Source: Nymphaea colorata
Taxonomy: Eukaryota > Streptophyta > Magnoliopsida > Nymphaeales > Nymphaeaceae
Assembly: GCF_008831285.2 (NCBI RefSeq)
Contig: NC_045139.1
Location: 788,204 to 852,203, forward strand
Length of the DNA: 64,000 nucleotides
Direction: 5' to 3'
Shown: in pieces, positions 14,601 through 58,285 of the stretch
Numbering within the stretch: position 1 is the stretch's first letter
How the letters are laid out: the number at the start of each line of letters is the position of its first letter
The notes under the pieces: generated by a model
Told to the model about the DNA's origin: nothing
Databases searched by the model: none
The model's input: the letters and a program-made list of their open reading frames with translations, nothing else
Made by a program: the position numbers and the translations under genes

Positions 14601-17600
14601 ATGATGAAGCTGCTGCAGATGAGGTCGCAGGAGAAGAGGGTGAAACTGATCATAAAAATCATGAAGAGCACATAAAACAGGCTGATGAAATGAGCACCCC
14701 AGAAGTAGAAAGTGAATATAAGATGACAAAGGAAGAAACACTCGATGTGGTTCCAGAGGAGCAAGACACTGAAGCTGGTTATCTGAAGTATGGTAGAATA
14801 CATGAAAGCCTGGAACAAAAACATATTCCAGATGAGAGTAGTCATAGAGACTACCTTGAAACTGTCATCAAGAACAATGAAAGTGCTACAAATGAAAGTA
14901 AGCATAGTGACAACCTGAATAAAGAAGAGATTATCAATGAGGTCCTTCTTGATAAATCAATTCCAGAATTTCAGAGTCAGGAAGATTTGAACATTGTCAA
15001 AGAAATTGTAAAGGGTGCCATAGAGTTGGGGCCTGAAGGACAGGATCATAAAAGTTGCAATGAGAACTGGACTATTGCTTCTGAAAATGATACTGTAAAG
15101 TGCAAGAATCTGAATGAACTAGATATCCTAGATGAGACTGTACATTTTGAACCTGTTGTACATGTGAAAAGTGAACAGAACTTGAAGGTTGTGGACGATG
15201 GCAGTGGACAAGGTTTGGTTTCCTCTGAACCGCTGCCAATAGAAAAGAAGTTTCCAAATGGGATAGAAGCCTGTGAAATTAGCTCAATAAGTGATACTAT
15301 TCAGTGTGAAAGTCCAAAGAAATCAGACAACAAGGACGTCACTTGTCATGGTCAACCTGTTTTTCAGGCACAAACTGAGGAAGACATGCATCTTATCGGT
15401 GAACACAATGGAAAACCTAAGGATGACTCTGAGACAGTGTCTAAAGAAGAGACATCTGAAAGTTGTGCAAAGATGACAGACATCAAAACTTCAAACATTC
15501 AAAGAAGCATGGATACACAGAGAGGAAAAGATACTCTGGAAGATGAAGTGCCATCAGAAACTGACTCTTCAGCCTTGTGTGCTGCACAACTAGCAGATCA
15601 ACAGCAACGAGAAGATTCTGAAAATGTGCATAAATCAAACTTTGATGAGCAACAAGTCGACTACATTATTACTGGCACTTGTGCAGAAGAACTTGCAGTT
15701 TTGGTTAAAAGGACAGAAGCATACAGCAGTTGTCATGAAGACAAAAGAGTTGATGAGGAACTCGATGGAAGGAATAAAACAGTGTATACAGGGAACAACT
15801 GTGAGACAAACTATACACAAGTACCCACTCACCAGGAGACATTACAGATTGCAACTCAATATTATGTTGAAGAAGCTGAAAGACCAGATACAGTTCCCGA
15901 ACCAGCAAGCTTAGATCAGAGTTCATGTGTAATGTGCAATGCTCACAATGAGACAACTGAAATTGTCAATGAAACTTCACTTGATGCTATGGAAACAATA
16001 GAAAGCAACACAAGAAATGAAGGAGTGGAAGGTCTCAAACAAGAGGAGACTCTTAAATTAGACATTGAACAATGGAATCATGAAATAGGAAGCACGTGCG
16101 AAGGAAGCATGAAACAGAAATTTACTGCATCTCCTATCAGTAAGGAAAGACTAGAATCGCCTGTAAAAGCCAGCAGCATAGACGGTGATAACACAGAGGA
16201 AGCCAGATTCTTGAATGACAGAAGCACTTATTTTGCACAAATTTCTCAAGATTCAAAAGATGAAGCGGTTGTAGGTGACCGTGTGAATGTTGATAAATCT
16301 TCCATATATCTAGATAGGGAATCCCCGAAAATTACCCCAAGTACGAATGAGGAAAAACTTTATGATTCTACAGGACAAGAAAAAGAAGTGAACGGGAACA
16401 TCTCGGACACATCTGTTATGGGGGGTCAAACACTATCATGTGTTGATATAGCAGAAGCCTGTGAACTTCAGGGTGCTAATGAGTCAGTTTCTGAAGATAA
16501 GCAACAGGTGACAAACACCAAGGCCACCGAAATCCATACTTCACCTGATGAAAGAATGGAAGAGCAAAATTTTGAGTCCTCGACCATTACACTGGAACCA
16601 GTTGAAGGACACTTGCAAACAGCAAATGAAGAGAAGGTTGAGGAAGACAGAACTACAATCTCTGAAGAGCATGCTCAAGAACATACAAGCAAAAAAGAGA
16701 ACATAGAAGATGACACTTACCAGTATGAACAAGGAACAGGTTTATCATTTGTTCCAGCGACAGGAGAGTGTGAAGCTAATTCGTCCATAAAAGAGGAGGA
16801 CATGGTAGCTATAGTTGAAAAAAGGAAAAGTGAATTGTCAGAAGATGAGGAAAATGCCAACAAGAACCTTGAACAACTATCTATAGAGAAAGAGTCAATT
16901 GCTCACATACTACAGAACAAAATCAGTGAGAAACTTATCAAGATGGAAAGCACAGGTTCAAGTATACAATTCTCACAAGAAACTATGGAGAAGCTAGAAG
17001 GCAAGAATCCAGAACAAATGTCTTCAATTCAAGATATCCCACTTGTGGAATCCAAGGAAGAAGACAATTCTCTTCTAAAAATGATGCAGACTGAAGCTTG
17101 CACAGACCATGTAAAAATTGAAGGTACAGACAGTCATATCCATTGTCCTACTATGGAGAAACTGGTAGAACACTCCAATTTGGAGATTGTGAAGATTCCA
17201 GAAGACACCAATTCAGTTGTTCAAGATATTCCACAAGTGGAAGTTGACAAGCAAGAAGATTCAACTAAAAAAATATTACAAACAAAGGATAGCAAACATC
17301 ATTCAAAGGATATTGAGGATATTCCATCCAGTACACATGATTCAATTGGAGAGGTATTACAAGAGGATATGAAGCTAGAAGACTGCTCGATCAAGGAGCA
17401 TGAAAAGGAGACTCCAAAAGAGGCAACTATTTTTGAGGACAAGTCAAAAGTTGAGGTAGAAAAGAAACAGGACTCAATTGTAGGACTGGCACATAGAGAA
17501 AGTACTGATACACAAGATGAGAAGGTAAGCACAAATAGAATCCAAGATTCAAATGAAGAGACATCACGGGGACATGTGGGCAAACTAGTAGAAGCCTGTG

Positions 17601-20600
17601 GACTGAAGCTTCAAGAAGGAACTTTAGAGCAGGCTGCTTCACTTATAGACATTCTTCAAGTGGAAGCCAGGATGCAAGACGATTCATTTGAAGTACAGGA
17701 AGAAAGGACCAAGGTTTTTATCAAGGATGGCATGGATATCTTGTCCACCAACCATGAAGCGCTTAGAGTTATCTCACAGGAGCATGTGAATAGCCCAACA
17801 GATTCTTCTCCTATAGAACATCAAATGGAGATTCCAACAGAAGCAGTTCACAATATTCAACCACTGGGAGACAATTGGCACGAGTATGCAAGTCAAAGCA
17901 GGAAAAGCAGCAATGATCTTGAGGTGATCCAAGATTTGATTCAAGAGAGCGTGCAAAAAGAAATGGAAAATAAGGACCACCCACATTCAGAGATACAAAA
18001 GGTGACTCTAAAGGAGCCAACCGCAGCTGAAGACACACGATGTCTGGAAGGTGAAAAGCGAGAACATGCAGTTGTTAAAGCACTAAAAGAAGAAAGAACT
18101 CAAAATCTTGTGAAGAAGGAGACTGCAGATCTTTGCAGTTTTTCTGCCACTATGGGTTCAACTGAAGATATCATACAGGATTGCAAGGACAACCCAAGTA
18201 AGCCTTCCAATTTGAAACTTCAAGAAGAAACTCCAGAAAAGAAGCCTTCGGTTGAAGAAACTAGTCAATTGGAAATTGAAAATGAAAAGGATTTAACTAA
18301 AGAAACAATAGAAATGGTTAGCGAAATCTTACAAGAACACCCAGATCTGTTGCAAGAGGCTCCCAACAAGGAGCTTAGGTTGCCTCCAATTCAAGACAGC
18401 CTACAAATGGAAGAACAAGAGGAAGAGTGCTCAGCACTTAACATGAAGGTTCACAGTGATCTAGAACATGATAATCAAAAACGTGATGAGCTCCAGCCAT
18501 GCTTCAAGATAACAATTGAAGAGGGAAACATACATGGTGAGAAAACTGAAATGGATCATGAGAAGCACGTAAAATCACTAGAACTAGAATCTGAAGAAGA
18601 AACTTCTAAAATAATAGAGATTTCCAGAAACACAGATATAGAGGACCAACCAGGAGGAGAAAGCAATCTGTCGTCAATGCAGGCGTCTACAGATGCAAGC
18701 ATAAAAACAGAAGAAAGTGAAAGAGAAACTCAAGGAGAAGTACTCGAGGCAGATCCATTGGGACCGAGTCATTTAACAAACAAGAACAATGAAAATCATG
18801 ACATGGAAATCCTGAGAGAGAGATTCACTCCAGAGAATGTTCAAGAGGCACAGAATGAGAATGGTGAAAAAGAAGAGTTAAAAGGACCAGCAGCAGACCA
18901 GGTATGCAACATCTAATAATACAGCATAGGCAATGTAAGCCATTTGATAGACATGTTCAACCTCATCTCTGAAACAGAGAGAGTTCAGAGTTCATCATGT
19001 AAGTGACCTTTACCTAACCCAAGGAAAGGTGGGTTGCACCAGCATTATCAGCTAATATTGAGGCTTAGGAGAATTCACATTGGACTAGGTGGCTCATCCC
19101 TTTAATTATCTAATTCAAGATTATCTTGTCGCTTCTCAAGGTCCCAAAACTAGGGAGGGTGTGAACAGGTTTTAAACGTTGAATGGCCCTTGATTTCATG
19201 GCCTATTGATATATATTATTCTACAAAATCTCAAACTTGAATCAGCTACTGAATTAATAAATTCAACTTTGTTTTTTACAATAAACATATTATAGAACCA
19301 AGAAAAGATAGGAATGTGGACTATTTAACGACCTCCCCCCCCCCCCCCCCCCCAAACCAACTTCCCTAGCAGCTTTAATTTCAACCCCAAAAAAGCTAAG
19401 AACCTGGACAATTTAACCATTTGGTCAGCTCCCTTATAAGTCCCTCAAGATTACTCACAACCTTAGATACGGACTAATTTTTCCGGGTGTTACAGACAAA
19501 GTGGTCAACCAACACCCTAATTGATAGTACACCCATGGCCAGTCACGAACTGGTAGGTTGCATAATTGTATTACAAGCTTGAGCAAAATACTATGATCAA
19601 GGTTTTCATCATGAATTTTTTCTTTGCAACAAAAAAATTCAAAATATTTATCTCACTTTATCTAATGAATGCTGATTCATTTGACGCACTTCTCAAACAG
19701 GTTGAACTTGGAAGTTTATCCTCTGACAAAATAGAAGATGAGAAAAAAAATAGTTTCTCATTCTTGGTATCTGAACAACTAAAAGATGAAATCCTTGAAG
19801 CAAGTGAAACCAAAGAGATCAAGACAACGGGTACTAATCACAGGTCAGGTGAAGTGGCAGAACAGGATTCATCTGTAGTTCTCTTGGAAGAAGAGAAGAA
19901 AATTGAGGAACCTCTTTCACCAACTCATGACAAGATCTCTACAACTGTTCGTTCACCAGATGTGTCTGTCAACCAGGCAAAATTTGAAACAGCATCTCTT
20001 GACAAAACAGAAGATGAGAAGCTTGACAAGACTATCTTAGTCCACGACGAACAAAACAGTGAGATCCTTGAATCCAGCAGTAGCAGAACAAATAAGACAG
20101 TAAATGGCATAGATGAAGACATTCTAGTACAAGATTCAGGAGTGGAAATCTCCTCAGAAGACAAGAAAATTGAAGCAACATATCAAACAGAGCATGGAGA
20201 TCCAAATCAGGAAACCTTGAAAGTGAATAGAGAGAGTCATGATAGCTTTAAGGATGAGGCAAATTCAGAACCATCGCAACAAGAAACAACAGTGTCATTA
20301 AGGGCCTCAGGATTCAAGTTGGAAGATCAGCTGCTTCTTGTACCCATATTAGTGCAGGACGAGAAGGTTCAGGAATCAAGATCCCTAGAACTAGATAAAG
20401 AAGATGGAACTTCTGACACAACCAAAAGTTCCAGAATCACACAGAAGAAAGCTCAAAAAGAAGCAGAAAATAATATGTTCACAACTCAACCTTCTTTGGA
20501 TGCAGGCTTAAAAGTAGACAAAAGTACAACTCAAGTACAACAAAAGGTACTCAATGCAGACTCAATGGAGCAAGGTTTTCCAACAATTGGTGATAGTGAA

Positions 20601-39568: not shown

Positions 39569-40842
39569 TCACGAAGTGGGGGTGGTGCTCACCCAACTAC
39601 ACCCTGCCAATTTCTTGACTCCTTTACCGGCCATAACTTCTCTCAGTTCTACGGCTTCCTGCTACCTACCACAACCAGAATAGATATTTGGCAATACAAC
39701 ATAAGCTCCACACCTCTCTGGCTCTAAACCAAGAAGCCTCTGGCCTGCGGACTCACCTAAACCTAACTCCCCATGCAGCCTGCAAGCCCCCAACAAGGCA
39801 CCCCAGACTGATCCCTCAACATCCACTGGCATCCTCCTTATAAACTCGCTAGCCTCCTGTAAGAGACCTGCTGCACCGAGAAGATTAACCATGCAGCTAT
39901 AATGCTCAGTCCACGGTGAAATGTTGAATTCCGTATGCATAGAATCAAAATATTTGATGCCTAATTCAACACAACCAGCTCGTGCACATGCTGTGAGTAC
40001 TCCAAGAAAGGTGATCCCATTTGGTTTCAGACCAGCCTTCAGCATATCATTGTAAGTGGACATGGCCTCATTGCCACAGTCATGTGCTGCAAACGTCGAG
40101 ATCATGGCATTCCAAGTGCACAACTGCTTCACTTGCATACTCCCAAATACTATAATGGCAGACTTTAGCAAACCACATTTTCCATACATGTCGATTAGTG
40201 ATGTACCAAGAAATGGAGTAATCATAATGCTTCTTCTAATCACATAACCATGGAGAGATTTCCCTTCATTAGCAGCCCCTAGACCTCCACAGGCAGAAAT
40301 AACACTAACCAGAGTGGCTTCATGAGGCGATAAACCCACATCCACCATAGACTTAAAGAAATCAAATGCTTCTCTACAGCGCCCGTTCTTGGCGCAACCA
40401 TTGACCATAGTGGTCCAAGAGACGACATCCCGCCAAGGCATTTCAACAATCAGTTGGCGTGCAGAAGCCATCTTCCCATTTTTGCAGTATGCGTCGAGCA
40501 TCGCGTTGTGAGACACTTTATCTGGCTCGGATATTTCAACAAAAACCTGGCGCGCATCGTCTGTTTCCGCAAAAATACCATAGAACCGTCTGAGGCAGCT
40601 GTGTATGAAATTATCAGATGCTTGATAATGAGCCCATGGATGGTCTGGCCTATTGGCTTTGAGGTGGAAGAGGCCTTGATCAGTGAAGGGAAGGTGAATT
40701 TATCAGGATGGATCTGGTTTTTGAGCATTTGGGTGAAGAGGACGAATGGATTCTTAGAGCATTGTTGAAGGGTGTAGGTGTGGATTAAGGTGTTCCATAA
40801 GAAGGGATCCTTGCTCTTGTATAGAAGTCCCGTTGTGATCAA
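39569..40842 (-). pseudogene. disrupted PLS/E-class pentatricopeptide repeat (PPR) gene
   Basis: Intact relatives are organelle RNA-binding proteins. PPR motifs are clear: LWNTLIHTYTLQ, PDKFTFPSLIKA, VSHNAMLDAYCKNGKM, VVSWTTMVNGCAKNGRCREA, SLIDMYGKCG, CTWNAMISTFAAHD and an E-type end (SVWGALLGACRLHGE, LLGLEPERCGAYVVL). Three defects are visible. First, there is no ATG in frame at the N-terminus; a stop lies upstream. Second, a frameshift at about 40617-40627 makes the reading switch from TIHGLIIKH to ASDNFIHSCLRRFYG. Third, after NIYSGCGR a TAG (39662-39664) stands where relatives usually have Trp; beyond it the frame continues 30 sensible codons (EAVELREVMAGKGVKK) to TGA at 39569. No intron is seen, as is usual for PPR genes. 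A sequencing error could explain one break but hardly all three. Confidence 0.85.
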
Positions 40843-42205
40843 AACGCAGTGGAATTGGCTTCACTGGTCACAAATCCTGCAAAATTGGGAAATTTGGAGG
40901 AACGATCTAATGTTTCGGGCCGTTTTCTGAAGCAAGATGTGGCAGACCATGCTCATGAACTAAGTGCCGGTGGAGCTGAGTCCATGCAACGTTAGCAGTT
41001 CATACGCAAAACAACTGCCAAAACGATTGCACCAAACTTTTAAGTGCGAGTTTGAAACTTCAACTTCACGAATATGGATTTTCATCGTAGCAAGTCAAAT
41101 AAAAGCTTTACGGGTAGTTTGTCAATAGCAAAAGTATGTGATAGTTCCATCCATCATCTGCTCCAATACTTGAGAAAGTAACATTCCGCTACCATCGCCC
41201 AACGACGTACAAACGTGCAATTGAAGTCTCACTAATTTAAGGAACTACCAGCAATTTGCATCATGCGATTCTCACAAGAGCAAAAAACATAAAGAACATA
41301 AAACAGGAGGAGAGAGAAAATGAGAGGCGCATTAAGGATAATTATTGAATAAGCATTAGATTACATGAATATTCTTATTTTTTATACTTAAGTTATCAAT
41401 TGATATAAAAGAGTGTATCTTTTCAATTATTATTGTTAAATTGTTGTAACCATTATCTCGTACAACGTGTTTAATGGACAATTGTAAATGTAAACATGTA
41501 GTCGGTAGTCATACATGTAGGTGTGTAAGTGTGAGGATTATTACCAATGGCTCCAATCTTATGGGATGGGGCTCACTTACACCCCCTCCATTTTGCCTTA
41601 TATTGTATGACATGAATGCTGTATTCACATTGAGCTGCTCTCACCTTAAAAATTTTGATGCCCTGCCAGCTCAACTCAGCGGACTTTAATAACAGATTTG
41701 TTAGACATTTACTTGTAAATATCGGTCTTTTTATGTTTCGTTGAAAGTTAGGGTGAACAACGGACTAGTTGAAGTTTGACTTGTTAAAGAGTTCGAGCCC
41801 AGTCATTTGTTGAACGTGTCGAGCTCGCGTTTAGAATCGACTGGTTTAACTAATCCAGTTTAAAGTGTTAAACTCCCGGTTCGAAAATTATGTGTATCGA
41901 TTTTTACCGACTCGTTTTTTTTATAAACAAACCGGTTTCCCGGACCCTTTTGTGAGTTTGTCTCAGGCGAGAAACACTTTGCCTTTTTGTTTTCTCGTTT
42001 CGAAAAAATTTTCCCCCAACATTGAAACCTAAGTTCGTTGCTCCGCCTCCGCAGGACCGCAGCTCTGCTTCAGTCTTCAAGGTTTCAGGAGGCGAGGCGA
42101 TATCTGCCTGCAGCAGAGAGGGCAAGCTTCCTGCCTGCGTGTAGTCCAGCACCAGAAGCTTCTCATCTTTGGAATAGTAGTAGGCCCAGATTGGCGGCGA
42201 GGAAT
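40843..42205. other. intergenic stretch with dispersed-repeat matches
   Basis: The segment at ~41240-41275 (aactaccagcaatttgcatc, then atgcgattctcac) matches ~58317-58352. The segment at 41621-41735 (tgtattcacattgagctg, cagctcaactcagcggactt, taacagatttgttag, catttacttgtaaatatcgg) matches 53308-53440 and the tails of the repeats at 50690 and 57670. A frame opening at 42038 (MLRLRRTAALLQSSR...) has an Arg-rich start like an organelle presequence, but I cannot assign it. Confidence 0.45.
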
Positions 42206-42233
42206 GGGGGCAAGTTCGTGGAGGGAGCGCTGA

Positions 42234-43018
42234 GGGTTGATAACCTTTCTGAAGGAATTCTGGCATGCGTATTCAGAGACTATCTCAAGCATTCAGTGCA
42301 AGGAGGACCACGAAATCTTTTTAGCCAATCAAGGATCTGGGGAGGCAATCAAAGATGTAGCAGCGGTATCCTTGGTAAGTGGCAGTTTTTGTTGATTGCC
42401 ACCCTAATGTATTGTCTTGCTGCTCAGAAGTTTCTTGAACATGATAAGCAAAAACTAAATGGCTTGAAAATATGAAGGATAATACTGCTGTGAAATTTTG
42501 GACCTCCTTCATGTTTGATGAAACGTGAATAGGTGCAGAAATTCCAGTGTCATTATTAAACCAAAACACTCAATTCGTTTTGTTTTTTTCCCATTTTAAT
42601 ATCAAGTTGTTTGTTCATTATGTGCTCTAGAATGATGAAACTTCAGTATTGCAAAGACAGCGTGAAGCAGAAAAGATTATTGTTGAGGCTTACAGTGCTC
42701 TTCTTCTTGCCTTCCTCTTAATTGAAAGGTTTGCTTTGTCTTTCCGTTTTAAATCTTGAGCCACAATCAGATCTATGATTTGGCGACAACTATTTTTTTT
42801 TGTCTTTGGACATCCTTCCTGTTTAATGAAACGTGAATAGGTGCAGAAATTTCAGTGTCATTATTATATCCAAAACACTCAATTCGTTTTGTTTGTTTTC
42901 CATTTTAATATCAAATTGTTTGTTCATTTTGTTCTCTAGAATGATGAAACTTCAGTATTGCAAGGACAGCGTAAAGCAGGAAAGATGATTGTTGAGGCTT
43001 ACAGTGCTCTTCATTTTT
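42234..43018 (+). pseudogene. WAPL (wings apart-like) gene fragment with duplicated exon
   Basis: WAPL removes cohesin from chromosomes. Exon-like block 42234-42374 ends EIFLANQGSGEAIKDVAAVSL, then gtaagt. Block 42631-42728 follows ctctag and reads NDETSVLQRQREAEKIIVE, AYSALLLAFL, then a donor. The two join in phase 0. From memory, plant WAPL has an EAEKMIVEAYAALLLAFLST-like segment near its C-terminus. A ~309-bp tandem duplication repeats the second exon at 42940-43018, with changes, where it ends early in TGA. Nothing of the large N-terminal part of WAPL is present. It sits directly before Pescadillo fragments in the same orientation. Confidence 0.5.
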
Positions 43019-43080
43019 GTTGATTTTTTTTCCCAGATACTTCTAGGATTTTTCCACTTCCCTGTCATTTCATTGGGGTA

Positions 43081-44282
43081 GCCTGCCCACCAACTCCTGA
43101 AACTCAACTGGAAGCTATAGGAGAAGGTACGCAAGTTCTTCAATAAACACAGTCAGTCACTTTCTTGAAAATGCATTGCAGAGCTTTATGCAACATTAAA
43201 GTGTGTCTCTACTGCAAGAATGGCAACTGCTTTCTTGACAATGCGTTGCAGAGCTTTATGCAACATTAAAGTGTGTCTCTACTGCGAGAATGGCAACTGC
43301 TCCTAGCTGTGGACATGGATCCTTATCATATCCCACAAAGGAAACCACGGATGAGGGTTGGAGTAGAACATTATTCAAGAATCTGATGTTTTTCCTAAGT
43401 CATGGCGTGGGTAAATCCGTTTGAGTTTGATAGCTTGTCATCGTCATAACTTTTTTGCTAAGAAAATTTGTCTAGTACTTCATGATTTTTACAAAGTTGT
43501 AGGACGTGAATAATTTAGACTTGCCTTTGTCAATGAAATTTTGTGTCGCCAAATTCTACTTCCATGTTGCTAACTTATTTACATTTTAAATTTCTAGGTA
43601 CCTAAAGATTCCTTGCTTTTCATAATTACCGCTTTTGGTGGTGTCGTTTCATGGGAAGGTGAAGCATCTCCTTTTAGCAAAGCTGATGAAAGTATCATGC
43701 TTCAGGTGTGTGGTTTATCAAGTAATTATTGTTAATTGACTGGGTCGTGATCTTAGTTGTCTGATATGTAGTTTACATGCTTGTCCAAGGGTCCTTACAC
43801 ATGCAAACTATCCTTCAAAATTGCAATATCAACTTTTAGGTTTTAACAACTGAAGAATCACCTCGTAATTAGAAACAATTAAAATGACTTGTACATTTTC
43901 ATGTTTTAACACATGAAAAATATGCATAAAAGAAGAAAACTAGGTTCTTTCAAAGTAGGGTGCTCGGACTCAGTTGCTGATTTTAACAACCAAGATTCAA
44001 CTAAAACTAGTTATTTTTTTGAGTGCTTTGCAGTTTACATTGTCAGCCTTTTTTTTTACTTTTACATATCTGCGTATCTCTTTTTTTTATTTTTACATAT
44101 CTGTGTATCTCCATGCAACATGTTTTACTTTTACATTGATGGATCTTAAATAAAGGATTTTGTTCAACTTCTTGCTGCCTAATTGCAGATAGCTGAAGAA
44201 CAACCCCAGTCCAACATGTTCCCTTCTAGAAGATACGTTCGACTGACGTGGGTGTATGACAGTATATTGCTTCAAATTTCTC
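43081..44282 (+). pseudogene. Pescadillo homologue (PES) fragment, middle region with BRCT domain
   Basis: Intact Pescadillo acts in 60S ribosome biogenesis (PeBoW complex). Exon-like blocks are ~43081-43126 (TPETQLEAIGE), 43252-43406 (ELYATLKCVSTARMAT, WSRTLFKNLMFFLSHG), 43598-43705 (VPKDSLLFIITAFGGVVSWE, ADESI) and 44189-~44280 (PQSNMFPSRRYVRLTWVYDS). Each has plausible GT-AG borders and the phases join without a break. The FGG..SWEGE and W-Y-D positions fit the family's single BRCT domain. The N-terminal half of the protein is missing. After WVYDSI the frame runs into a large inverted repeat and stops. A 70-bp tandem duplication (43161, 43231) copies one 3' splice site. This is a truncated copy or captured fragment, not a working gene. 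Confidence 0.75.
43161..43301. repeat. 70-bp tandem duplication carrying a 3' splice site
   Basis: The text from tttcttgaMaatgc to ggcaactgc occurs at 43161 and again at 43231. Both copies include ttgcag followed by agctttatgcaacattaaag, so the start of a Pescadillo exon and its acceptor exist twice. Confidence 0.85.
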
Positions 44283-45270
44283 CTCTTTCTTCTTCTCACC
44301 AAACTACAACGTAAATGAAAGAATTTGATAAGCACTTCTGGGTTTCACTTTTTTTTTAAATATAAAAGAAAAAGCTAGATATGCATAGCCTAAGCACAAA
44401 TACATGAAAAAGAATCTAGTTTAACAAAGAACTAATAAAAACAGTTCATACTAAAATTTTCTCAAAATGCTTCAGCTCCTCCTCTTTTCAAATGTCCAAT
44501 TTCAGGAAAGGTTGCTCCTCAGAACTCGGGGCTTTTTGGTCAGAATTATTGGCTTTCTTTGCCACCATATAGTCAGTGCAGCTGATGCCTTTTAATTCCA
44601 TCTTCAGTTCTTTGAGGTATTGTTTCTCCAGCCTTGCATTATAAAAGATGAGCGAATTTTCAATAATTGGTTTAAGCATTTACTTTCAGCCGTTTGTTTT
44701 GCATCAAATTTACTTGTCAAATATTCGAGGACAAATGTATAGTAAGGAACGTGACTGCAAAGCCTTCAAAAGGAGAAAAATAAAGCGAAAGGAGGTAGAA
44801 TAACAAAACCAAGTGCATGATTGTGGATTCCTTGTTTTTCAATGGTTGTCTATGAGATTTGTTTTTCTTGGACTGTAAATGCTTACACCAATTATTGAAA
44901 ATTCGCTCATCCTTTTAGGGTGCAAGGCTTGATAAACAATATCTCGAAGAATTGAAGATGAAATTAAAAGACATCAACTACACTAACTATATGGTGACAA
45001 AGAAAGTCAATAGTTCTAACCAAAAAACCTAGAGTTTTGAGGAGCAACCTTTCTTGGAATTGGACATTTGGGAAGAGAAGGAGCTGAAGCATTTTGAGGA
45101 AATTTTAATATGAACCGTTTTGATTAGTTCTTTGTTAAACTAGTTTTTTTATGTATTTGTGCTTAGGTCATGCATATCTAGCTTTTTCTTTTATATTTTA
45201 AAAAAGTGAAACCTATGGGTGTTTATCAAATTCTTTCATTTAAGTTGTAGTTTGGTGAGGAGAGGAAAGA
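44270..45270. repeat. large inverted repeat of Pescadillo-derived sequence (arms ~400 bp, loop ~175 bp)
   Basis: The left arm (~44270-44695) is the reverse complement of the right arm (~44870-45270). Matches extend from the loop side (gaaaattcgctcat; its reverse complement is at 44650) to the outer side (ttgtagtttggtgag; reverse complement near 44297). The right arm in plus sense encodes ARLDKQYLEELKMKLKDI. The left arm in minus sense encodes ARLEKQYLKELKMELKGI. Both fit the Pescadillo segment just C-terminal of its BRCT region. A transcript across the region could fold into a long, imperfect hairpin. Confidence 0.8.
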
Positions 45271-47646
45271 TGAGAAAGCTGCTCTTGATGAAGAGGAGAG
45301 AAAGTTCAAAGAAATTGGCAAAGGAGAAGGCTCTTCTTGAAAAATAGTGTTAGTCTCTTCTAAAATATCCTTCATTTTCCATTTTGAATGCAAAGGAGAA
45401 GGCTTTCTGCAAAGCCAAAGTACTCAAATTGTCAGGGGATTCAAGTTTTAGAGAAGATGGCTCTTTAAAGACAGGTTAATGTTCAGTGGATTCAAGTTTT
45501 ATGAAGGTGGCTCTTTAAAGGCGGGTTAGTGTGTCGACTCACCATGGTAGCCTGGAAAACCCTGAAAGGCAACCACTTCAAGAAATAACGATAATCACAA
45601 GCTTAAATGCTTAATGTGTTGGATGTCTCCATACAAAAGCGCTTTGGCAGTCCCTCGCTGCAGTTTAACTTGTGAGACCATGGTACAGTTGCTTTGCTTA
45701 AAAATGGCTGTTAACTTAAACATACAAAAACAGTAAACGAATACGCTAACTGTGATCCAGATTCGAAAGGCTACTCATGTATTTAAAATTAAAACAATGT
45801 AATAAATTGTGTGCAGTGGAGTGTAAAAATAAATTGTCATATATATATATATATATATATGTATAAGAGAGTATAATCTTTTTGGGATAGTTGAAGTTTG
45901 TAATTTATCCCTTTTTTTAAATGAATCTGAATAGTTGAAGTTTGTAATTTTTTTATTCGTTTTCTTTCAAAGTTAATCTTTTTGGGATTCAAAAACCTAT
46001 AAAATTTTAGATAAAATCACCTCCTTTTTAGTTGTATAATCATAATAAGAGAATCTCCTTAATTTCTCTAATATACCTTGATAAGAAAAACTTAGTGTGC
46101 ACAAATGCGATAAAAGAACTATAAATTAATTAGCTCTTCCGTTCCCCAAAGTCTAAGGACTGAAGGTCGTCCCTATCAATCTGACCGACGGCCTCCTTTA
46201 TCAGCTTTGCACCGTATTCTATACCCCGCTGATCGAAACTTAATATATATATATATATATATATTCATCCTCAAAAGTGTCTCAAACTAAAGAAAAATGG
46301 CACGAACATATAGAATCATGGTGGAAGAGAAATTAAAAAGAATGGAAAAGTCAAAATTAAGGAAAAAAAGTTTAAAAATATAATTTTTTATCTCAACGTA
46401 CCTGTATACCGACATGGATATGTGGGCAGATCACATATACCCGTGTGACTTAGGTAGCTTCTCGACTATACAGATTTTCCAAATGACTGTAAGCAATGTC
46501 ATGCCAGCATGTATTTCATCAAGTTGGTTAAGGCTGACTTGTCTGAACTAATGTATGACCCTCTTCCCATTTCTTAGATAAAATCTTCTAACATGAATTT
46601 TACTGTACATATTTCCATATAATAGCAGAAAATTAACATTGAAAAAATATGGTCTGCTAATTTGTTCATATCACTTGCCTTCTCGATGAGCAAATCATCA
46701 GTATATATTTGAGCTAACATAGTTGATCTAAGCCCAAGTATGAATTAGAATATCAACTAAGTACTAAATAAAGACCAGTTATACCAAAACTACCGTCACG
46801 ACCCAAGTTTTTGACACAATTTTTTTTTATCCACAATAATTATGAACATCAAGTCTGTAAAAACCAAATCACGGTTCGAGTATGACCAGTACAAGACGAA
46901 CAAAAACAAAGCATTCAGACCCACAAAACTCAATCAACAAAGCCCAGACTCAACACATGCCTAGATCGCTAACGACGGTCCATTTCAATTGAGGATGTCA
47001 ATCCTGGAGCTTATGATCTATCAATAACTACCTATAAAGACAAGAGGAAAGGTCAGATTTCTCCGAGTATGGCAACATTTAGCCATGGGTGGAACATGAT
47101 CCGACAAAATAAATACACAATTATGTCAAACAAATCTATATCATGATTCATGGCCTACATCTATAAGTCCGTTTGATTCATAATGCCTTGTTGAGTTAAA
47201 ACTTATAACCATAAGTGAGTTACATTATACGTTTATGTATTGTAAGGTTACAATGGTGGTCCATTAACAATAAATATTGTCATTATGTCGAGCATTCAAT
47301 AGAGGACCCTGTGGGTACAAAACACATGTAAAACAGAACAAATCTTTACCAAATGATATACAAAAATTGAGGGTAACCTACAATAAAGCCTCTTGAGATA
47401 TTTCAGATCACCGCAATAGAGCCATACAACTGGTATCACCCAAAGTGGTAGATCAACCCATCTAGGCACCCGAGTTCAGAGACTAAGAGTTGCCTTGCGC
47501 TCCAATCAAAGTTATAACTGAATCTTAAGCCCTTATGCCGTTCGATACCCGTGGGCAGTTTAGTGCATATGCAGTGTGCAACCACAGTGAGCACATACCA
47601 CACTACTACCTCTCGAAACAAAACTATCCACTGGACTTAGCTCATA

Positions 47647-47730
<84 letters not shown>

Positions 47731-47959
47731 GCGCTAGCCGTCATTTGTGTTCAAATCTGTATATATATATTTATATACATGCATATGCATTTATATTTAG
47801 AACCCACACCTTGTGTCCTTCCATTCCTAATTTATTATATTGTCATAGAGATAACTATCTAAAAATGAAAAGTCAATTTGTTGTTGGAAAGTTCGCTAGA
47901 TGCTAGTGTATTTATAAAAACGGTGTGCTCAATGTTGAAACTTATGGGTCCTTCACTTG
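45271..47959. other. intergenic, AT-rich, no supported gene
   Basis: A short direct repeat, 'aggggattcaagttttagagaa' like, occurs at ~45436 and ~45488. TA tracts lie at 45839-45860, 46240-46264 and 47650-47728. The last is about 39 TA units and gives rise to a false Tyr-Ile ORF. Nothing else is recognised. Confidence 0.55.
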
Positions 47960-48466
47960 TAATCCTGGGTGTCGGGCCGGGCTGCCGCCTGGCCCGGTCG
48001 GACCCGGTTCGGGCCGGGGAAAACCTGGCCCGAGCTGGGCCCAATAGGCCAGCCCGACTCCCGCCCTCTGTCTCCCTCTCCGCTCCCCCTCTCCCTCTCT
48101 GCTCCCGCTCCCTAAGGCTGGGCGTCGGGCCGGCTCGGTATGGGCCGAAAAAATCCCGGGCCGGCCCGATAACTACCCCTACCGCTCCCCCTCTCCCTCC
48201 TCCTTTGTTTCCCTCGCCGCTCCCACTCCTCCTGCGTCTCCCTCCCCCTCCCCCCTCCTCCTCCATCGGAGGGCGACGGGAGGGCAGGGGGAATGGGGGT
48301 CGAGAGGGTAGGGGACGGCAGGGCGGGCCGGGTTCGGCTGAGCGGCCCAACGGGCCGGGCCGAGAACTGGGCTATCGGGCTGGCCCCGGGCTGGGCTGAG
48401 CGGGCCGACGGGCCAGATCGGGCCGACCGTTACCCGACCGGTCCGGCCCGATGCCCAGGCCTATTA
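47960..48466. mobile_element. non-autonomous hAT-like element (GC-rich MITE), 507 bp
   Basis: A sharply GC-rich island in AT-rich DNA. The left end reads taatcctgggtgtcgggcc. The right end, reverse-complemented, begins taataggcctgggcatcggg, so the termini share a CCTGGGYRTCGGGCC-type inverted repeat. The flanks are ttcacttg (47952-47959) and ttcactgg (48467-48474), an 8-bp target duplication with one mismatch, as expected for hAT. The interior is built of ggccgg and ctccctctcc motifs. A second start-like motif (ggctgggcgtcgggccgg, ~48117) suggests nesting or internal duplication. No transposase is encoded; Gly/Pro/Arg-rich ORFs in it are compositional. Confidence 0.65.
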
Positions 48467-49599: not shown

Positions 49600-50720
49600 A
49601 TGAGTTTGATAAAAAATAAAACACTCTCCTCCTTCTCGTGCTACTTTTCTTCCTTTTGCTCTCGGTTAACTTTATTTGAAGAGGTCTTTAAGGGTCTCCT
49701 GTTGGTGTTCATTCACTTTCATTCCAAGAAGTCTCAAGTGATGCGTCCATCGAGATCTAGGTTTCTTTTCTATCATGTTCTTTTCGTGACATGCTATTGC
49801 TTAATTTATAATAGAAATATAAACAAAATGCATATCCAAAAAACGGTAAATGGATTCAGCTGTAAATCCGGCGATCCTAAGTTGATAAAAATGAACTGAA
49901 AATCCAAGAAAGAAAAGAATAAACACACACACACACCCAAACACAAAAATAAACTTTTACGAGCTTCAGTGCATCAGGTTCTGTTTTTCTACGTTCATTC
50001 AACGACCGTGTTGTGTTTTAGTCACTCCTCTTTGTGTAGATAAGGACTTGTTTTATCTATATTGCAGGACAAAAGCTAAAACCCTTGTTGATATGCTTTT
50101 AGAACGATCGAAGAACGGGGAACCCTTTGACATTTTCTCAAAGAATGTGAAGATTTCCCTTCATTTAGTTTTTTATAGTTTTAAGATGTTTACTTTTTTT
50201 TATTGCAGTAACATGGATTCTATGTCATATTCATTCTATGCAGATGTTTAGAGTTCTCTGGTGCATTGCACCTGTTGCATGATTATCTGATTCGGTGTTC
50301 TTTTTTGTTGCACAACCTCTCAGTCAATACTGAGATAAATAATATATATGTACATGTTGAATGTCACTTTTCTAGTTTTTCATTTTTTGTAACCTACTAC
50401 TTAGGCTTTGAATATAATTATGTGAAGGTTTATGTTTTTTTCCTTTTTGCATAGTGTTTTTTAGTGATATTATTGTACTCTGCCAGCCTAGTAGCCATTT
50501 TTGAAATATGACATTTTATCTTTGTTTAGGTTAAGTTTCGAATGGCAGACATATGTTTGTAAAACTAATAATGTAAGAAAGATCTCCGTCACTACTGAAG
50601 GCATACAATATCATGTAATTATTTTTGGTCCTCATGAATATAATGTTTTAATAATTGACATATAAGTTTGCATATACGTGTATGACATTTACTTGTAAAT
50701 ATCGGCCTTTTTATTTTTAC
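49600..50720. repeat. repeat-family copy A (~1.1 kb)
   Basis: It starts gataaaaaataaaacactctcc. It then shares with copy B and with the 53-57 kb array the segments 'aagaagtctcaagtgatgcg', 'gagatctaggtttcttttct', 'ttttatctatattgcag', 'aaagctaaaacccttgttga', 'gcatgattatctg', 'cacaacctctcagtcaatac' and 'taataattgacatataagtt'. It ends near catttacttgtaaatatcgg. It holds one exon-like segment (TLVDMLLERSKNGEPFDIFS) after an acceptor. No transposase or reverse transcriptase frame is seen. Confidence 0.7.
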
Positions 50721-50799
50721 ACTGGGAGCTCCACAGGAAACGTGTCGACCTAGTTAGTTATGCACTCCCTAACGATTAAACGATCCGTACCTAAGTGGG

Positions 50800-51770
50800 C
50801 GTTCGATAAAAAATAAGATACTTTCCTCCTTCCCCTACTACCTTTTCTCCCTTTTGCTCTCAGTTCGCTTCACTCGAAGAATTCTTTTAGGGTCACCCGT
50901 TTGTGCTCATTCACTTCCATTCCAATAAGTCTCAAGCGATGCGTCCGTCGAGATCTAGGTTTCTTTTCTATCTTGTTTTCTTCGTGACATGCAATTGCTT
51001 AATTTAGAATAAAAAGATAAACAAAATGGTTATTCAAAAAATGATAATTGAATTTAGATGTGAATATGGCGCCTAAGTTGATAAAACTAATCTGAAAAAC
51101 CAAAGAAGAGAAGAACAAACACGCACATGGACACAAACACAAAAATAAACATTTACATGCTTTAGTGCACTAGGCTTTGTTTTTCTACGTTCATTCAATG
51201 GCCATGTTATATTCTTCTTCATCCTTCTTTTAGGTGTAGATAAGGACTTGTTTTATCTATATTACAGGTGAATCACGGCAAAAGCTAAGTCATTTTCTTA
51301 AAGAACATGTAATGATTTTCCTTCATTTTGTTTTTTATAATTTTGAGATGTTTACTTTTTATTTCAGTAACATAGATTCTATGTCATATCCTTTATGTGC
51401 ATATGTCCACTCATGCATTGTACATGTTGGATGATTGTCTGGATTGTGTTCTTTTTTGCTGCACAACCTTCGAGTCAATACTTTGACAAATAAAAATAAT
51501 ATATATGTACATGTCGAAGGTCACTTCTCTTGCTTTTCATTTTCTGTTGCCTACTACTTAGGCATTGCTCTTACCTACTAGCCATTTTTGAAATATGACT
51601 TTTTATTTTTGTTTAGGTTGAGCCTTGAATGGTAAACATATGTTTGTGAAACTAATATTTTAAGAAAGATTTTTGTCACTACTGAAGGCATACAATATCA
51701 AGTAATTATTTTCGTCTTCATTAATATAAAGTTTTAATAATTGATATATATGTTTGCATATACGTGTTGA
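50800..51770. repeat. repeat-family copy B (~1.0 kb)
   Basis: Collinear with copy A from gataaaaaataagatacttt to taataattgatatatatgtt. The exon-like segment is shortened: after attacaggtgaatcacggca only aaagctaag survives before the text jumps to the downstream cttaaagaacatg. Confidence 0.7.
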
Positions 51771-51904
51771 CATGACCTTCCAATGGAATGCTCCAGTAAT
51801 GAACCTCAAGCAATTTTACATAGAGAATATCTTATTTAAGGCATGCCTCCTGAATTTCTTGGCGGTACCGGCACTAAATATTGCCCAAACAAACTCCACA
51901 AAAG

Positions 51905-52850
51905 TTTTTTATTTTCATTTTGCTTTAAAATATTTGTTCACTTATATAGTGGTGCCTCTTTGAGGTTTTTGTATTGCATGACCCACCATGTCAAGTCCAC
52001 CATATTTCACACAAATAATGTTGAGGAATTCTTATATTTGAAATCGGCAATGTTTGATATTTCTTATACAATACATTTGACATAGTGAACCGTATTTGAG
52101 CCAAACAAACATCTTCTTCGCATATTGAATTATATTTTTGGGTGTTTGATTGCTGCCGAATTCAAATAAGAGGTTGCGTAAAACTAAGATTTCAGAATTT
52201 TTCATTTAGAAAATGTATTAAAATCATGGGTGCCGAATCGATTCAAGACACAAGCTACTAAATTCCATTAACAGACTTAAATTTAGAATACGTAGTAACT
52301 TTAATTAATGCGTATAGGCTTCCGTTCATTATAAAATTTGGGTTGTTTAATATGTAGTTATGATGCAATAAAAAAGGCGGAGGTTAACAAATTCAAATAC
52401 AAAAAACCATGACAATATTTTCCATGTGACATTTTTCAGGAATAGACAAAGCACTTGAGAGGCACGTGTGGGTATATGTGGATACATAATTGTTCCCATA
52501 AACGTACAAAAATATTTATTTAACAATTTTTTTCATTTTCAAATTTTATTAAAAAATTAGTATTTTATATTACTAGTGCACCTTAGCAAATGGACTCAGC
52601 AAGTAACGAAGCTTCCACACGATTTTAGGAGCTTAATGGGTTGCTTGAAAAAAACAAACATGTAAATTTTACAAAAATTTATTTAGTTAAAAATTTTAAA
52701 GTATAATTTTGCTCCCTTCATGAAAAATTACTGGTTCTGTGCCTAGTAGAAGAGGACCGGCTTATTTTGTTTTGTTTATACCGGTAGAGCTAAGTTTGAC
52801 GCTCTGCATTCTATATATATTTTTCTTTCTTGTACACATTATTTTGTTAG
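51905..52850. repeat. segmental duplication, left copy (partner 57810-58285)
   Basis: The shared order is ttgctttaaaatatttgttc, tgcatgacccaccatgtc, tcacacaaataatgttgag, gaaccaaacaaacat-like text, attgaattatatttttgggt, 'aagaggttgYgtaaaactaa', and attaaaatcatgggtgc (to 52231). The partner then resumes at sequence matching ~52795-52850 (gctctgcattctatatata, ttcttgtacacattattttg). About 560 bp present here are absent there. Confidence 0.7.
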
Positions 52851-53211
52851 AATAAAAGGGTGAAGAGCTTAAATTCCAGCCGCCATTTATTGGCATTTTA
52901 ATGCATTATAGTCGTGCTTCTGTTTAATTATGTTTTTAGGTGCTTAATCACTTAAAAAAAATATACATGAGGTGAAATACAATATCAGGACCTTAAAGCA
53001 TGTGATATAGTATCTTTTGTTCATAACAAAACATATGCAATCCTTTGTTCCAAAGTTGCAACGGTTGCACCTTATGTTAAACTCAAGTTTAAACTTTTAC
53101 TTCAAGAATATTAATTTCAAAGGTTTTATGACAATAGTAAAGACGCATTACAATTCCATAACATGTCCCAACATTTCAGGTGGCATATTCATAAAACAAC
53201 AACATAATGTA

Positions 53212-53450
53212 TTAGGTCAATAGGCCAGAGACCCCTTTGGAAGGAAAAATAATCTCTACAATACTTATAACTTGCCTTACATGCTGATTACCACTGAGAT
53301 ATGACGTTGTATTCACATTTGCTGTCAGCAATTACTTCCGCCTTAAATAATTTAGATGCCGAACCAAGTCGCCAACTCAACTCACCCAAACCGAGTTGCC
53401 AACTCAACTCGGCGGACTCCAATAACCGATGTGTTAGTAAGGTGAAGTTA
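53212..53450. repeat. dispersed repeat copy (matches H+-PPase intron 4 and 41.6 kb)
   Basis: The left part (53212-53315) matches 31617-31720 inside the H+-PPase gene. The right part (53308-53440: ttgtattcacatttgctg, cgccaactcaactc, ggcggactccaataaccgat) matches 41621-41705. The phrase cgccaactcaactc also begins each later unit, at about 54781 and 56262. Confidence 0.6.
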
Positions 53451-53460
53451 GTTATACGCT

Positions 53461-53850
53461 GAGAGCTCGATCAAAAATCAAGAAACCCTCTTCTTTTTTG
53501 AGCCATGTTTCTCCCTTTCGTGAGCTCGATCAAAAATAAAAAAACTTTCGTCCTCCCCAGGCTACGTTTCTCCCTTTCATGAGCTCGATCAAAAATCAAG
53601 AAACTCTCATCCTGCCTGGGATACGTTTCTCCCTTTCGTGAGCTCAATCAAAAAACAAGAAACTCTCGTCCTCCCCGGGCTACGTTTCTACCTTTCATTA
53701 GCTCAATCAAAAATCAAGAAACTCTCTTCCTCCCCGGGCAACGTTTCTCCCTTTCATGACATCGATAAAAAATCCAGAAACTCTCGTCATCCACGGGCTA
53801 CGTTTCTTCCTTCCGTGACCTCGATCAAAAATTAAGAAACTCTCGTCCTT
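53461..53850. repeat. ~60-bp minisatellite, block 1
   Basis: The unit reads roughly gagctcgatcaaaaatcaag, aaactctcgtcctccccggg, ctacgtttctccctttcgt, repeated about six to seven times with substitutions. ORFs through it (KKQETLVLPGLRF) come from the periodicity and are not treated as genes. Confidence 0.85.
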
Positions 53851-54860
53851 CCTTTCGTTCACTTTCACTCGAAGTCTTTCAGGGTCTCCCATTTGCTCTC
53901 TACTTCCATTTTAAGAAGTCTCAAGCATGCCACCATCGAAATCTAGGTTTCTTCTCTATCTCATTCTCTTCGGAGACGTTTGATGATAAAGAAATTTCGA
54001 ATTGAAAAAATAAACATTTACGTGCTTCAGTGCATCAGGCTCTATTTTTCTACATTCATTCAATGAGCATATTGTGTTCTTCCCCTTTCTTGTTGTTTGA
54101 GTAGATAAAAACTTGTTTTGTCTATATTGCAGGTGAATCATGGCAGAAGCTAAGACCCTTGTTGATCAGCTTTCAGGGTCTCCCATTCGCTCTCTACTTC
54201 CATTTTAAGAAGTCTCAAGCATGCCTCCATCGAAATCTAGGTTTCTTCTCTATCTCATTCTCTTCGGAGTCGTTTGATAACAAAAAAATTTGGAATTGAA
54301 AAAATAAACATTTAGGTGCTTCAGTGCATCAGGCTCTGATTTTCTACGTTCGTTCAACGAGCGTATTATGTTCTTCCCCTTTCGCTTTTAGAACGCTTGA
54401 AGAACAGAGAACCCTTTGACATTTTCTTAAAAAACATGTGATGATTTTCATTCATTTCGCTTATTATAGTTATAATATTTCTACTTTTTATTTCAATAAC
54501 TCAGATTCTACGTCATATCCTTCTTGTGTAGATGTCTAAGTTCTCTGATGCATTGTACCTATTGCATGACTGTTTGGATTTAGTGTTCTTTTTTGTTGTA
54601 CAACCTTTGAGTCAATAATTTGACAAAATAATATATACGTACATGTCGAATGTCACTTCTCTAGCGTTTCGTTTTCTTTTGTTTACTACTTAAGCTTTGA
54701 AGATAATTCAACGAAGGTTTACGTTATTTTCTTTTTTACATATAGTGTTTTTTAGTGACATTAACTCACCCGAACCGAGTCGCCAACTCAACTCACCCGA
54801 ATTGAGTCGCCAACTCAACTCGGCGGACTCCAATAACCGATGTGTTAGTTATACGCTGAG

Positions 54861-55250
54861 AGCTCGATCAAAAATGAAGAAACGAGAAGTCTCATCCTTC
54901 CCACACTACGTTTCTCCCTTTCGTGAGCTCGATCAAAAATCAAGAAACCCTCTTCTTTTTCGAGCCACGTTTTTCCCTTTCGTGAGCTCGATCAAAAAAC
55001 AAGAAACTCTCGTCCTCTCTGGGCTACGTTTCTCCCTTTCATGAGCTTGATAAAAAATCAAGAAACTCTCGTCCTCCTCGGGCTACGTTTCTCATTTCAT
55101 GAGCTCAATCAAAAATCAAGAAACTCTCTTCCTCCCCGGGCTACGTTTCTCCCTTTCATGATATCGATAAAAAATCAAGAAACTCTCGTCATCCGCGGGC
55201 TACGTTTCTTCCTTCCGTGGCCTCGAACAAAAATTAAGAAACTCTCGTCC
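54861..55250. repeat. ~60-bp minisatellite, block 2
   Basis: Same unit as block 1, located in the second 1.48-kb unit of the array. The repeat number is similar, and its substitutions are closest to those of block 3. Confidence 0.85.
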
Positions 55251-56340
55251 TTCCTTTTGTTCACTTTCACTCGAAGTCTTTCAGGGTCTCTCGTTCGCTC
55301 TCTACTTCCATTTTAAGAAGTCTCAAGCATGCCACCATCGAAATCTAGGTTTCTTCTCTATCTCATTTTCTTCGAAGTCGTTTGATGATAAAGAAATTTC
55401 GAATTGAAAAAATAAACATTTACGCGCTTCAGTGCATCAGGCTCTATTTTTCTACATTCATTCAACGAGCATATTGTGTTCTTCTCCTTTCTTGTTGTTT
55501 GAGTAGATAAAAACTTGTTTTGTCTATATTGCAGGTGAATCATGGCAGAAGCTAAGACCCTTGTTGATCAGCTTTCAGGGTCTCCCGTTCGCTCTCTACT
55601 TCCATTTTAAGAAGTCTCAAGCATGCCTCCATCGAAATCTAGGTTTCTTCTCTATCTCATTCTCTTCGGAGTCGTTTGATAACAAAAAAATTTGGAATTG
55701 AAAAAATAAACATTTACGCGCTTCAGTGCATCAGACTCTATTTTTCTACATTCATTCTACGAGCGTATTGTGTTTTTCCTCTTTCTTCTTGTTTGAGTAA
55801 ATAAAAACTTGTTTTATCTATATTGCAGGTGAATCATGGCAGAAGCTAAGACCCTTGTTGATATGTTTTTAGAACGCTTGAAGAACAGAGAACCTTTTGA
55901 TATTTTCTTAAAGAACATGTGATGATTTTCATTCATTTCGCTTATTATAGTTATAATATTTCTACTTTTTATTTCAATAACACAGATTCTACATCATGTC
56001 CTTCTTGTGTAGATGTCTAAGTTCTCTGATGCATTGTACCTATTGCATGACTGTTTGGATTTAGTGTTCTTTTTTGTTGTACAACCTTTGAGTCAATAAT
56101 TTGACAAAATAATATATACGTACATGTCGAATGTCACTTCTCTAGCGTTTCGTTTTCTTTTGTTTACTACTTAAGCTTTGAAGATAATTCAACGAAGGTT
56201 TATGTTATTTTCTTTTTTACATATAGTGTTTTTTAGTGACATTAACTCACCCGAACCGAGTCGCCAACTCAACTCACCCGAATCGAGTCGCCAACTCAAC
56301 TCGGCGGACTCCAATAACCGATGTGTTAGTTATACGCTGA

Positions 56341-56735
56341 GAGCTCGATCAAAAATGAAGAAACTAGAAGTCTCATCCTTCCCACACTACGTTTCTCCCT
56401 TTCGTGAGCTCGATCAAAAATCAAGAAACCCTCTTCTTTTTCGAGCCACGTTTCTCCCTTTCGTGAGCTCGATCAAAAAACAAGAAACTCTCGTCCTCTC
56501 CGGGCTACGTTTCTATCTTTCATGAACTTGATCAAAAATCAAGAAACTCTCGTCCTCCTCAGGCTACGTTTCTCATTTCGTGAGCTCAATCAAAAATCAA
56601 GAAACTCTCTTCCTCCCCGGGCTACGTTTCTCCCTTTCATGACATCGATAAAAAATCAGGAACTCTCGTCATCCGCGGGCTACGTTTCTTCCTTCCGTGA
56701 CCTCGATCAAAAATTAAGAAACTCTCGTCCTTCCT
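56341..56735. repeat. ~60-bp minisatellite, block 3
   Basis: Same unit as block 1, located in the third unit of the array. It is nearly identical to block 2, with a few base changes, which suggests a recent duplication. Confidence 0.85.
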
Positions 56736-57809
56736 TTCGTTCACTTTCACTCGAAGTCTTTCAGGGTCTCTCGTTCGCTCTCTACTTCCATTTTAAGAAG
56801 TCTCAAGCATGCCTCCATCGAAATCTAGGTTTCTTCTCTATCTCATTCTCTTCGGAGACGTTTGATGATAAAGAAATTTTGAATTGAAAAAACAAACATT
56901 TACGCGCTTCAGTGCATCAGGCTCTATTTTTCTACGTTTATTCAACGAGCATATTGTGTTCTTCCCCTTTCTTGTTGTTTGAGTAGATAAAAACTTGTTT
57001 TGTTTTTATTGCAGGTGAATCATGACAGAAGCTAAGACCCTTGTTGATCAGCTTTTAGAACACTTGAATAACAGAAAACCCTTTGATATTTTCTTAAAGA
57101 ACATGTGATGATTTTCATTCATTTCGCTTATTATAGTTATAATATTTCTACTTTTTATTTCAATAACAGAGATTCTACATCATATCCTTTCTGTGTAGAT
57201 GTCTAAGTTCTTTGATGCATTGTACCTATTGCATGACTGTTTGGATTTAGTGTTCGTTTTTGTTGTACAACCTTTGAGTCAATAATTTGACAAAATAATA
57301 TATACGTACATGTCGAATATCACTTCTCTAGCGTTTCGTTTTCTTTTGTTTACTACTTAAGCTTTGAAGATAATTCAGCGAATGTTTACGTTATTTTCTT
57401 TTTTACATATAGTACTTTTTAGTGACATTATATGCTCTTCCAAAATTGTGGAGAAAGATATTCATTATTTAACCAATGGCCATTTCTGAAATATGACTTT
57501 TTGTTTTTTTATATGTTGATTCTTGAATGACAGACATATGTTTGTGAAACTAATAGTTTAAGAAAGATCTTTGTCAATATTGGATGCATACAATATGAGG
57601 TAATTATTTTTCATCATCATTAATGTAAAGATTTAATAATTGATATATACGTTTGCATATATGTGTCAAACAGTTTACTTGTAAATATTGGTCCTTTTAT
57701 CCTTACAGTCAAAGCGTCTCCGCCAAATCTGGACAACCCGCTCTCTCCAATCCCTCCCTGCAAACTCTCTCGGTTGAAAGCCTATCTGTCTCTCCCTAAT
57801 CCGATTTTT

Positions 57810-58285
57810 AAACTTCCACATTGCTTTAAAGTATTTGTTCGTTTATATATAATGGTGCTGTGTGAGGTTATTTTATTGCATGACCCACCATGTCGAGTCT
57901 TCTATGTTTCACACAAATAATGTTGAGAGATTATTGTATTTGAAATAGAAGTTATTCGATTTCTTACACAATAAAGTTGACATGGAGACCAGTGTTTGAA
58001 CCAAACAAACATCGTGTTCACATTTGCCTTGCAAAAGAATTCCCATGAAATAAAATGTTGTTCGGAAAAAAAGAAAATTAAAGCACGGTATTCTATTGAA
58101 TTATATTTTTGGGTGTTCGATTGCTTCCGAATTTAAATAAGACTATAAGAGGTTGTGTAAAACTAAGATACTAAATCATAGGATTTCAAAAATTTTCATT
58201 TAGAACAAATATATTAAAATCATGGGTGCTCATGATGCTTTGCATTCTGTATATATTATGGTTTCTTGTACATATTATTTTGTTT
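57810..58285. repeat. segmental duplication, right copy (partner 51905-52850)
   Basis: Collinear with the left copy from ttgctttaaagtatttgttc to attaaaatcatgggtgc, then jumps to sequence matching ~52795 onward. A ~60-bp insertion after caaacaaacatcg is absent from the left copy. Immediately downstream, ~58317-58352 matches ~41240-41275. Confidence 0.7.

Follow-up and report, generated by a model that had tools for sequence, protein, structure and literature searches.

We found that a 64-kb stretch of DNA (C2:788204-852203, referred to here as the window) contains a long inverted repeat derived from the gene for Pescadillo (PES). The sequence relationships described below make it very probable that this repeat is an inverted duplication inside a partial, decayed duplicate of PES, that its potential to form a hairpin is a by-product, and that control of PES by the repeat is unlikely.

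Two Diverged Arms Form a Long Inverted Repeat

Comparison of the window with itself by BLAST identified two arms in opposite orientation (407 and 403 bp; Table 1), which are separated by a spacer of 191 nt and are identical at 359 of 402 aligned columns (89.3%; 6 gap columns; E-value 2.5e-141). An earlier, sequence-only reading of the window had described two opposed arms of approximately 400 bp, which is confirmed, and a distance of approximately 175 bp between them, which is too short. The repeat falls apart into several pairs in an ungapped search. With the low-complexity filter on, the window contained no other inverted pair in which arms of at least 150 bp are separated by no more than 2 kb; with the same limits on arms and spacer, a sample of 20 stretches of 10 kb from the genome (199,900 bases) held no such pair, and neither did loci L009 to L012, two of which are described below. 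Given its absence from this 200-kb sample, a long inverted repeat of this type may be uncommon in this genome.

Fold-back chimeras yield inverted repeats with short spacers, and so we considered whether the repeat arose as an artefact, either in assembly or by fold-back during sequencing. In an artefact of this kind the arms are nearly identical, however, whereas these arms differ at 43 aligned sites and 6 gap columns, and the changes that could be polarised are divided between them (15 and 16). The divergence of the arms rules out an artefact for practical purposes, and the probability that we leave to it is negligible.

Table 1. Parts of the PES-derived copy and its inverted repeat, in window coordinates
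Feature	Position	Strand	Description
PES copy, 5' part	43024..44266	+	truncated, intron-retaining, sense; holds exon 43598-43705
Left arm	44277..44683	-	flipped copy of the segment in the right arm, from a PES intron through an exon and an intron into the beginning of the last exon
Spacer	44684..44874	+	44776-44874 is sense PES: exon end with donor, then intron
Right arm	44875..45277	+	collinear sense PES segment
Decayed rest of last PES exon	45278..45330	+	blastn homology to PES ends here

A Putative Parent Gene and a Second PES Fragment

When the genome (407.8 Mb in 783 contigs) was searched with the repeat, three places emerged among the best-scoring candidates: the repeat itself, a locus on C2 near 32.008 Mb (L009), and a locus on C12 near 21.1306 Mb (L010). 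The Pescadillo_N profile matched a single place in the genome, on C12; there were six exon matches, none with a stop codon, and open frames in their vicinity can be read as consecutive PES exons. A splice model joined the last five C12 PES exons into a 259-aa product, which matched solved Pescadillo homologues (best E 1.6e-26). A Pfam scan of this product at a cut-off of 0.001 found no families, contrary to expectation, and its identity as PES was assigned because of its match to the solved homologues and because the Pescadillo_N exon matches lie in the same gene. On these similarities, L010 is putatively the one intact PES gene found.

L009 is a second PES fragment, which aligns with L010 in two blastn pieces (93.2% and 94.5% identity) and lacks one exon region between them. 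Like the copy in the window, it is a PES fragment in the same genome that has introns and lacks the N-terminal domain (the Pescadillo_N profile had no match at L009). Unlike in the window copy, no inverted repeat was found in it, and it is, judging from its identity to L010 (506 of 526 aligned bases around the arm region), much the younger of the two.

The Arms Lie within a Truncated, Intron-Retaining PES Copy

Open reading frame translation placed EKQYLKELKMEL on the minus strand of the left arm and DKQYLEELKMKL on the plus strand of the right arm, and these two peptides bear out the earlier claim that both arms encode the same Pescadillo segment. The description of the arms as a coding segment was correct with respect to PES and incomplete in other respects, as by the splice model each arm runs from one intron through an exon and the next intron into the start of the last exon.

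The surrounding sequence (43024-45330) is collinear and in sense with the PES gene on C12, in exons and introns alike, in blastn pieces of 67-79% identity. The part upstream of the repeat (43024-44266) aligned with the minus strand of L010 in four pieces (72.6-79.2%), and positions 45097-45330 aligned with L010 4728-4511 at 67%. The copy starts in an exon that matches positions 217-255 of the 273 positions of the Pescadillo_N profile, so nearly all of the N-terminal domain is gone. The exon at 43598-43705, which presumably belongs to the BRCT region of PES, has an open frame and is identical to L010 at 93 of 108 bases. As the arms are less well kept than this exon, its sequence allows for an earlier period during which the copy was a working paralogue.

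Sense homology to PES breaks off at 44266 (L010 5960), before the flipped left arm, and resumes clearly at 44776 (L010 5152), or possibly, in a weak alignment, from 44712 (L010 5224). Some 0.7-0.8 kb of PES has therefore been lost, and a flipped copy of the downstream segment stands in its place. The part of the spacer at 44684-44775 showed hardly more similarity to PES than did shuffled sequence (alignment score 34.8, compared with 30.0 +/- 4.0 and a highest score of 47.1 in 300 shuffles), and a genome search with the spacer returned only the spacer itself. The copy thus has the features of a duplicated, non-processed pseudogene: homology to the parent that includes introns and is collinear with L010, and disabling lesions in the form of the N-terminal loss, stop codons, a lost splice donor, and the missing 0.7-0.8 kb.

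We rejected a MITE or other terminal-inverted-repeat transposon as the source of the repeat. No target-site duplication was seen by eye in the outer flanks (CTTCAAA and GCTGCTC), the only other places among the best genome candidates were L009 and L010, and PES homology lies on both sides of the repeat, continuing past its right end.

Upstream of the hairpin, the decayed PES copy also contains a 72-bp tandem duplication (96% identity, 43160-43301).

Decay of the PES Copy Appears to Have Preceded the Flip

We aligned both arms with L010 and L009. Relative to these two loci, the arms have in common seven deletion blocks (1-31 columns), the 31-column block taking an exon end and its splice donor, and one 19-column insertion; another three gap blocks are not the same in the two arms. 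Of the substitutions at sites with the same base in L010 and L009, 84 are common to both arms and 31, which could be polarised, are specific to one arm (15 left and 16 right). Left out of the polarisation were ten sites where neither arm matches the outgroup and one where the two outgroups disagree.

Because the seven deletions are common to both arms and one of them removes the splice donor, the PES copy appears to have been dead before the flip. This order of decay and flip holds unless gene conversion between the arms spread later lesions, and such conversion could also lower the apparent age of the flip. The stop codons, on the other hand, are different in the two arms: the left arm exon has one in LDI*KEEE, and its intron acceptor AG is also gone, and the right arm exon has one in QKT*SFEE. 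Judging from their restriction to single arms, these stops arose after the flip. Read from the alignment, then, the order of events is gene copy, decay, and flip.

We propose that a partial genomic duplicate of PES, consisting of the 3' half with its introns and without nearly all of the N-terminal domain, landed in the window and decayed into a pseudogene, and that an inverted copy of the pseudogene's 3' segment would later have arisen within it, in the place of approximately 0.7-0.8 kb. DNA repair, in which the template is switched or sequence is copied into a break, would most simply account for the flip; no plain microhomology was seen by eye at the breakpoints. The hairpin capacity would then be a by-product of the flip.

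The Predicted Hairpin Could Act on Its Own Locus

The predicted RNA fold of the repeat has an energy of -580.9 kcal/mol for the plus strand and -543.4 kcal/mol for the minus strand. Thirty dinucleotide shuffles of the plus strand gave -223.7 +/- 7.2 kcal/mol, which places the repeat at a z of about -50. In this fold the arms form 379 pairs with each other, of which 23 are G-U; three Watson-Crick runs reach 21 bp or more, the longest 29 bp. The earlier proposal that the PES-derived repeat would give a long, imperfect hairpin if transcribed is therefore upheld by the arm alignment and the predicted fold, and the locus has the long inverted repeat capable of forming dsRNA that marks a hairpin siRNA locus. 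At 89% identity and with up to 29 consecutive Watson-Crick pairs, the arms would in principle be good Dicer substrates. A read-through transcript, if there is one, would form dsRNA that would most likely be diced to 21-24-nt siRNAs silencing the locus of origin; the locus, if transcribed, would most likely work like an endogenous hairpin siRNA locus that acts mainly on itself.

A reading that is compatible with the preferred explanation of a by-product of inverted duplication is that the locus is indeed transcribed, that the hairpin is diced, and that the resulting siRNAs direct methylation of the pseudogene in cis. The predicted fold and its three long runs argue for this reading, as does a precedent in rice, where Guo et al. 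(2009; PMC2708354) give two inverted pseudogene pairs with small RNAs (Table 3 of that paper). We searched the arms for a methylation scar, which would have hinted indirectly at siRNAs, but C:G to T:A changes account for 15 of the 31 polarised arm-specific substitutions and 30 of the 84 common ones (Fisher p 0.28), which is no clear signal. We regard action in cis as possible, though less likely than not.

The rice pairs have 185-nt arms at 83% identity and arms of about 155 nt at 96%, and the first case has a 1,283-nt loop (PMC2708354). Like the arms in the window, the members of each pair are pseudogenes of the same parent gene that lie close together in opposite orientation, and their transcript can form an imperfect duplex. 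At about 405 bp the window arms are longer than these, and their spacer is shorter; the rice pairs, in contrast to the predicted window hairpin, have mapped small RNAs. For the one rice pair that the authors describe, no small RNAs were seen from the parent gene, and action on their own locus was suggested for the inverted pseudogenes (PMC2708354).

The Arms Are Distant from the 3' PES mRNA

The sequence-only reading had taken the hairpin to be a trans-acting small-RNA locus that lowers expression of the intact PES gene. The arms are derived from PES, which speaks for this reading; they are identical to the C12 gene at only 270 of 385 (left) and 269 of 383 (right) bases, or approximately 70%. 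We compared all 21-mers of the arms with the spliced 3' PES mRNA, which consisted of the five last exons and the 3' flank according to the splice model (~1.1 kb). None of the 387 left-arm or 383 right-arm 21-mers matched it with three or fewer mismatches, and the best had four (11 left and 6 right). When G-U pairs were given half cost and the core was not weighted, 1/387 and 0/383 reached a penalty of 3, and 27/387 and 14/383 reached 4. We then doubled the penalty at positions 2-13, a scheme used in plant target prediction; 1/387 left-arm and 0/383 right-arm 21-mers reached 4, and 5 and 1, respectively, reached 5. The earlier reading had named too low an identity between the arms and the mRNA of the intact PES gene as grounds for its refutation; over the 3' half of that mRNA this identity was low, and near-perfect 21-mer complementarity of the kind expected of a trans-acting silencer was not found. 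With blastn, the arms did not align with the 5' half of PES (L010 only).

The remaining similarity to PES is nevertheless above chance. No 21-mer from five shuffles of the left arm came within four mismatches of the 3' PES mRNA, so the homology between arm and PES is still visible, and the single match at a core-weighted penalty of 4 (1 of 770 21-mers) is, by comparison with the background rate, more than is expected for a target of ~1.1 kb, as homology predicts. Core-weighted penalties of 4 or less were reached, however, in 14 of 40 sampled 10-kb strand-stretches of the genome with the left arm and 12 of 40 with the right (lowest 1.5 and 1.0), and in these stretches there are matches better than that to PES. 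The closest match between an arm and PES is 20 nt, exact, and inside a PES intron according to the splice model. Against unspliced PES (L010), 5/387 left-arm 21-mers had one mismatch, the best of them in the intron; none of the left-arm 21-mers that nearly match unspliced PES is within three mismatches after splicing.

In addition to the lack of close matches, the sequence was apparently already a pseudogene before the flip, and taking both sides together we consider it very improbable that the locus lowers expression of PES in trans. The 21-mers that reach an unweighted penalty of 4 leave weak targeting of PES a slight chance on sequence grounds. The chance is also very slight that siRNAs from the pseudogene hairpin, despite their mismatches to the PES mRNA, act on PES through a few best sites, or through the 20-nt intron match in the nascent transcript; if they did, a dead gene copy would tune ribosome assembly. 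The sequence distance makes regulation of the working PES gene unlikely.

The usual miRNA stem is far shorter than arms of ~400 bp, which counts against the reading of the locus as a young miRNA-like gene. A search of 41000-48000 with Rfam at the gathering score matched no known RNA family, including any known miRNA family (a new family would still be possible), and the 3' PES mRNA contains no target match of miRNA quality. The point in favour is one of origin: Zhang et al. (2011; PMC3237417) update the inverted duplication model for the origin of plant miRNAs and link pseudogene-related miRNAs to inverted duplication. In that model, as in the window, a flipped gene segment beside another copy gives a foldback; the source in the window is instead a decayed copy, too unlike the working gene to supply a ready-made target. 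A miRNA-like gene therefore seems to us a scarcely credible reading.

An inverted pseudogene duplication capable of forming a hairpin is of a kind that is already known, and the feature looks like ordinary genome debris of that kind; we infer that the hairpin locus lacks a function. Among the papers listed in a literature search on a Pescadillo inverted repeat with small RNAs, none had a title on this subject. The locus illustrates that a long hairpin can originate in a gene copy after that copy has died and diverged far from the parent gene; regulation of an essential gene therefore does not follow from the fact that a hairpin is derived from it. If small RNAs were found, the locus would be a good natural test of the mismatch tolerance of such siRNAs.

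Surroundings of the PES Copy

Upstream of the PES copy, at 39609-41011, lies a gene region with a frame that we take to be PPR-like; gene content of this sort suggests that the genome is that of a plant. Both of the other PES copies are followed just past their 3' ends by decayed matches to this region (L010 3883-4191 and L009 2603-2790), which have the opposite orientation relative to PES.

Elsewhere in the window, positions 10415-18916 form one open frame of 2833 codons, which is E/D/K-rich by eye and contains an internal repeat (12883-13598 and 13870-14579, 67% identity); E/D/K-rich frames of the same sort continue to 27357. At 49604-58229, direct repeats (about 71-97% identity) form a nested block in which RELDQK..SRN-like frames recur.
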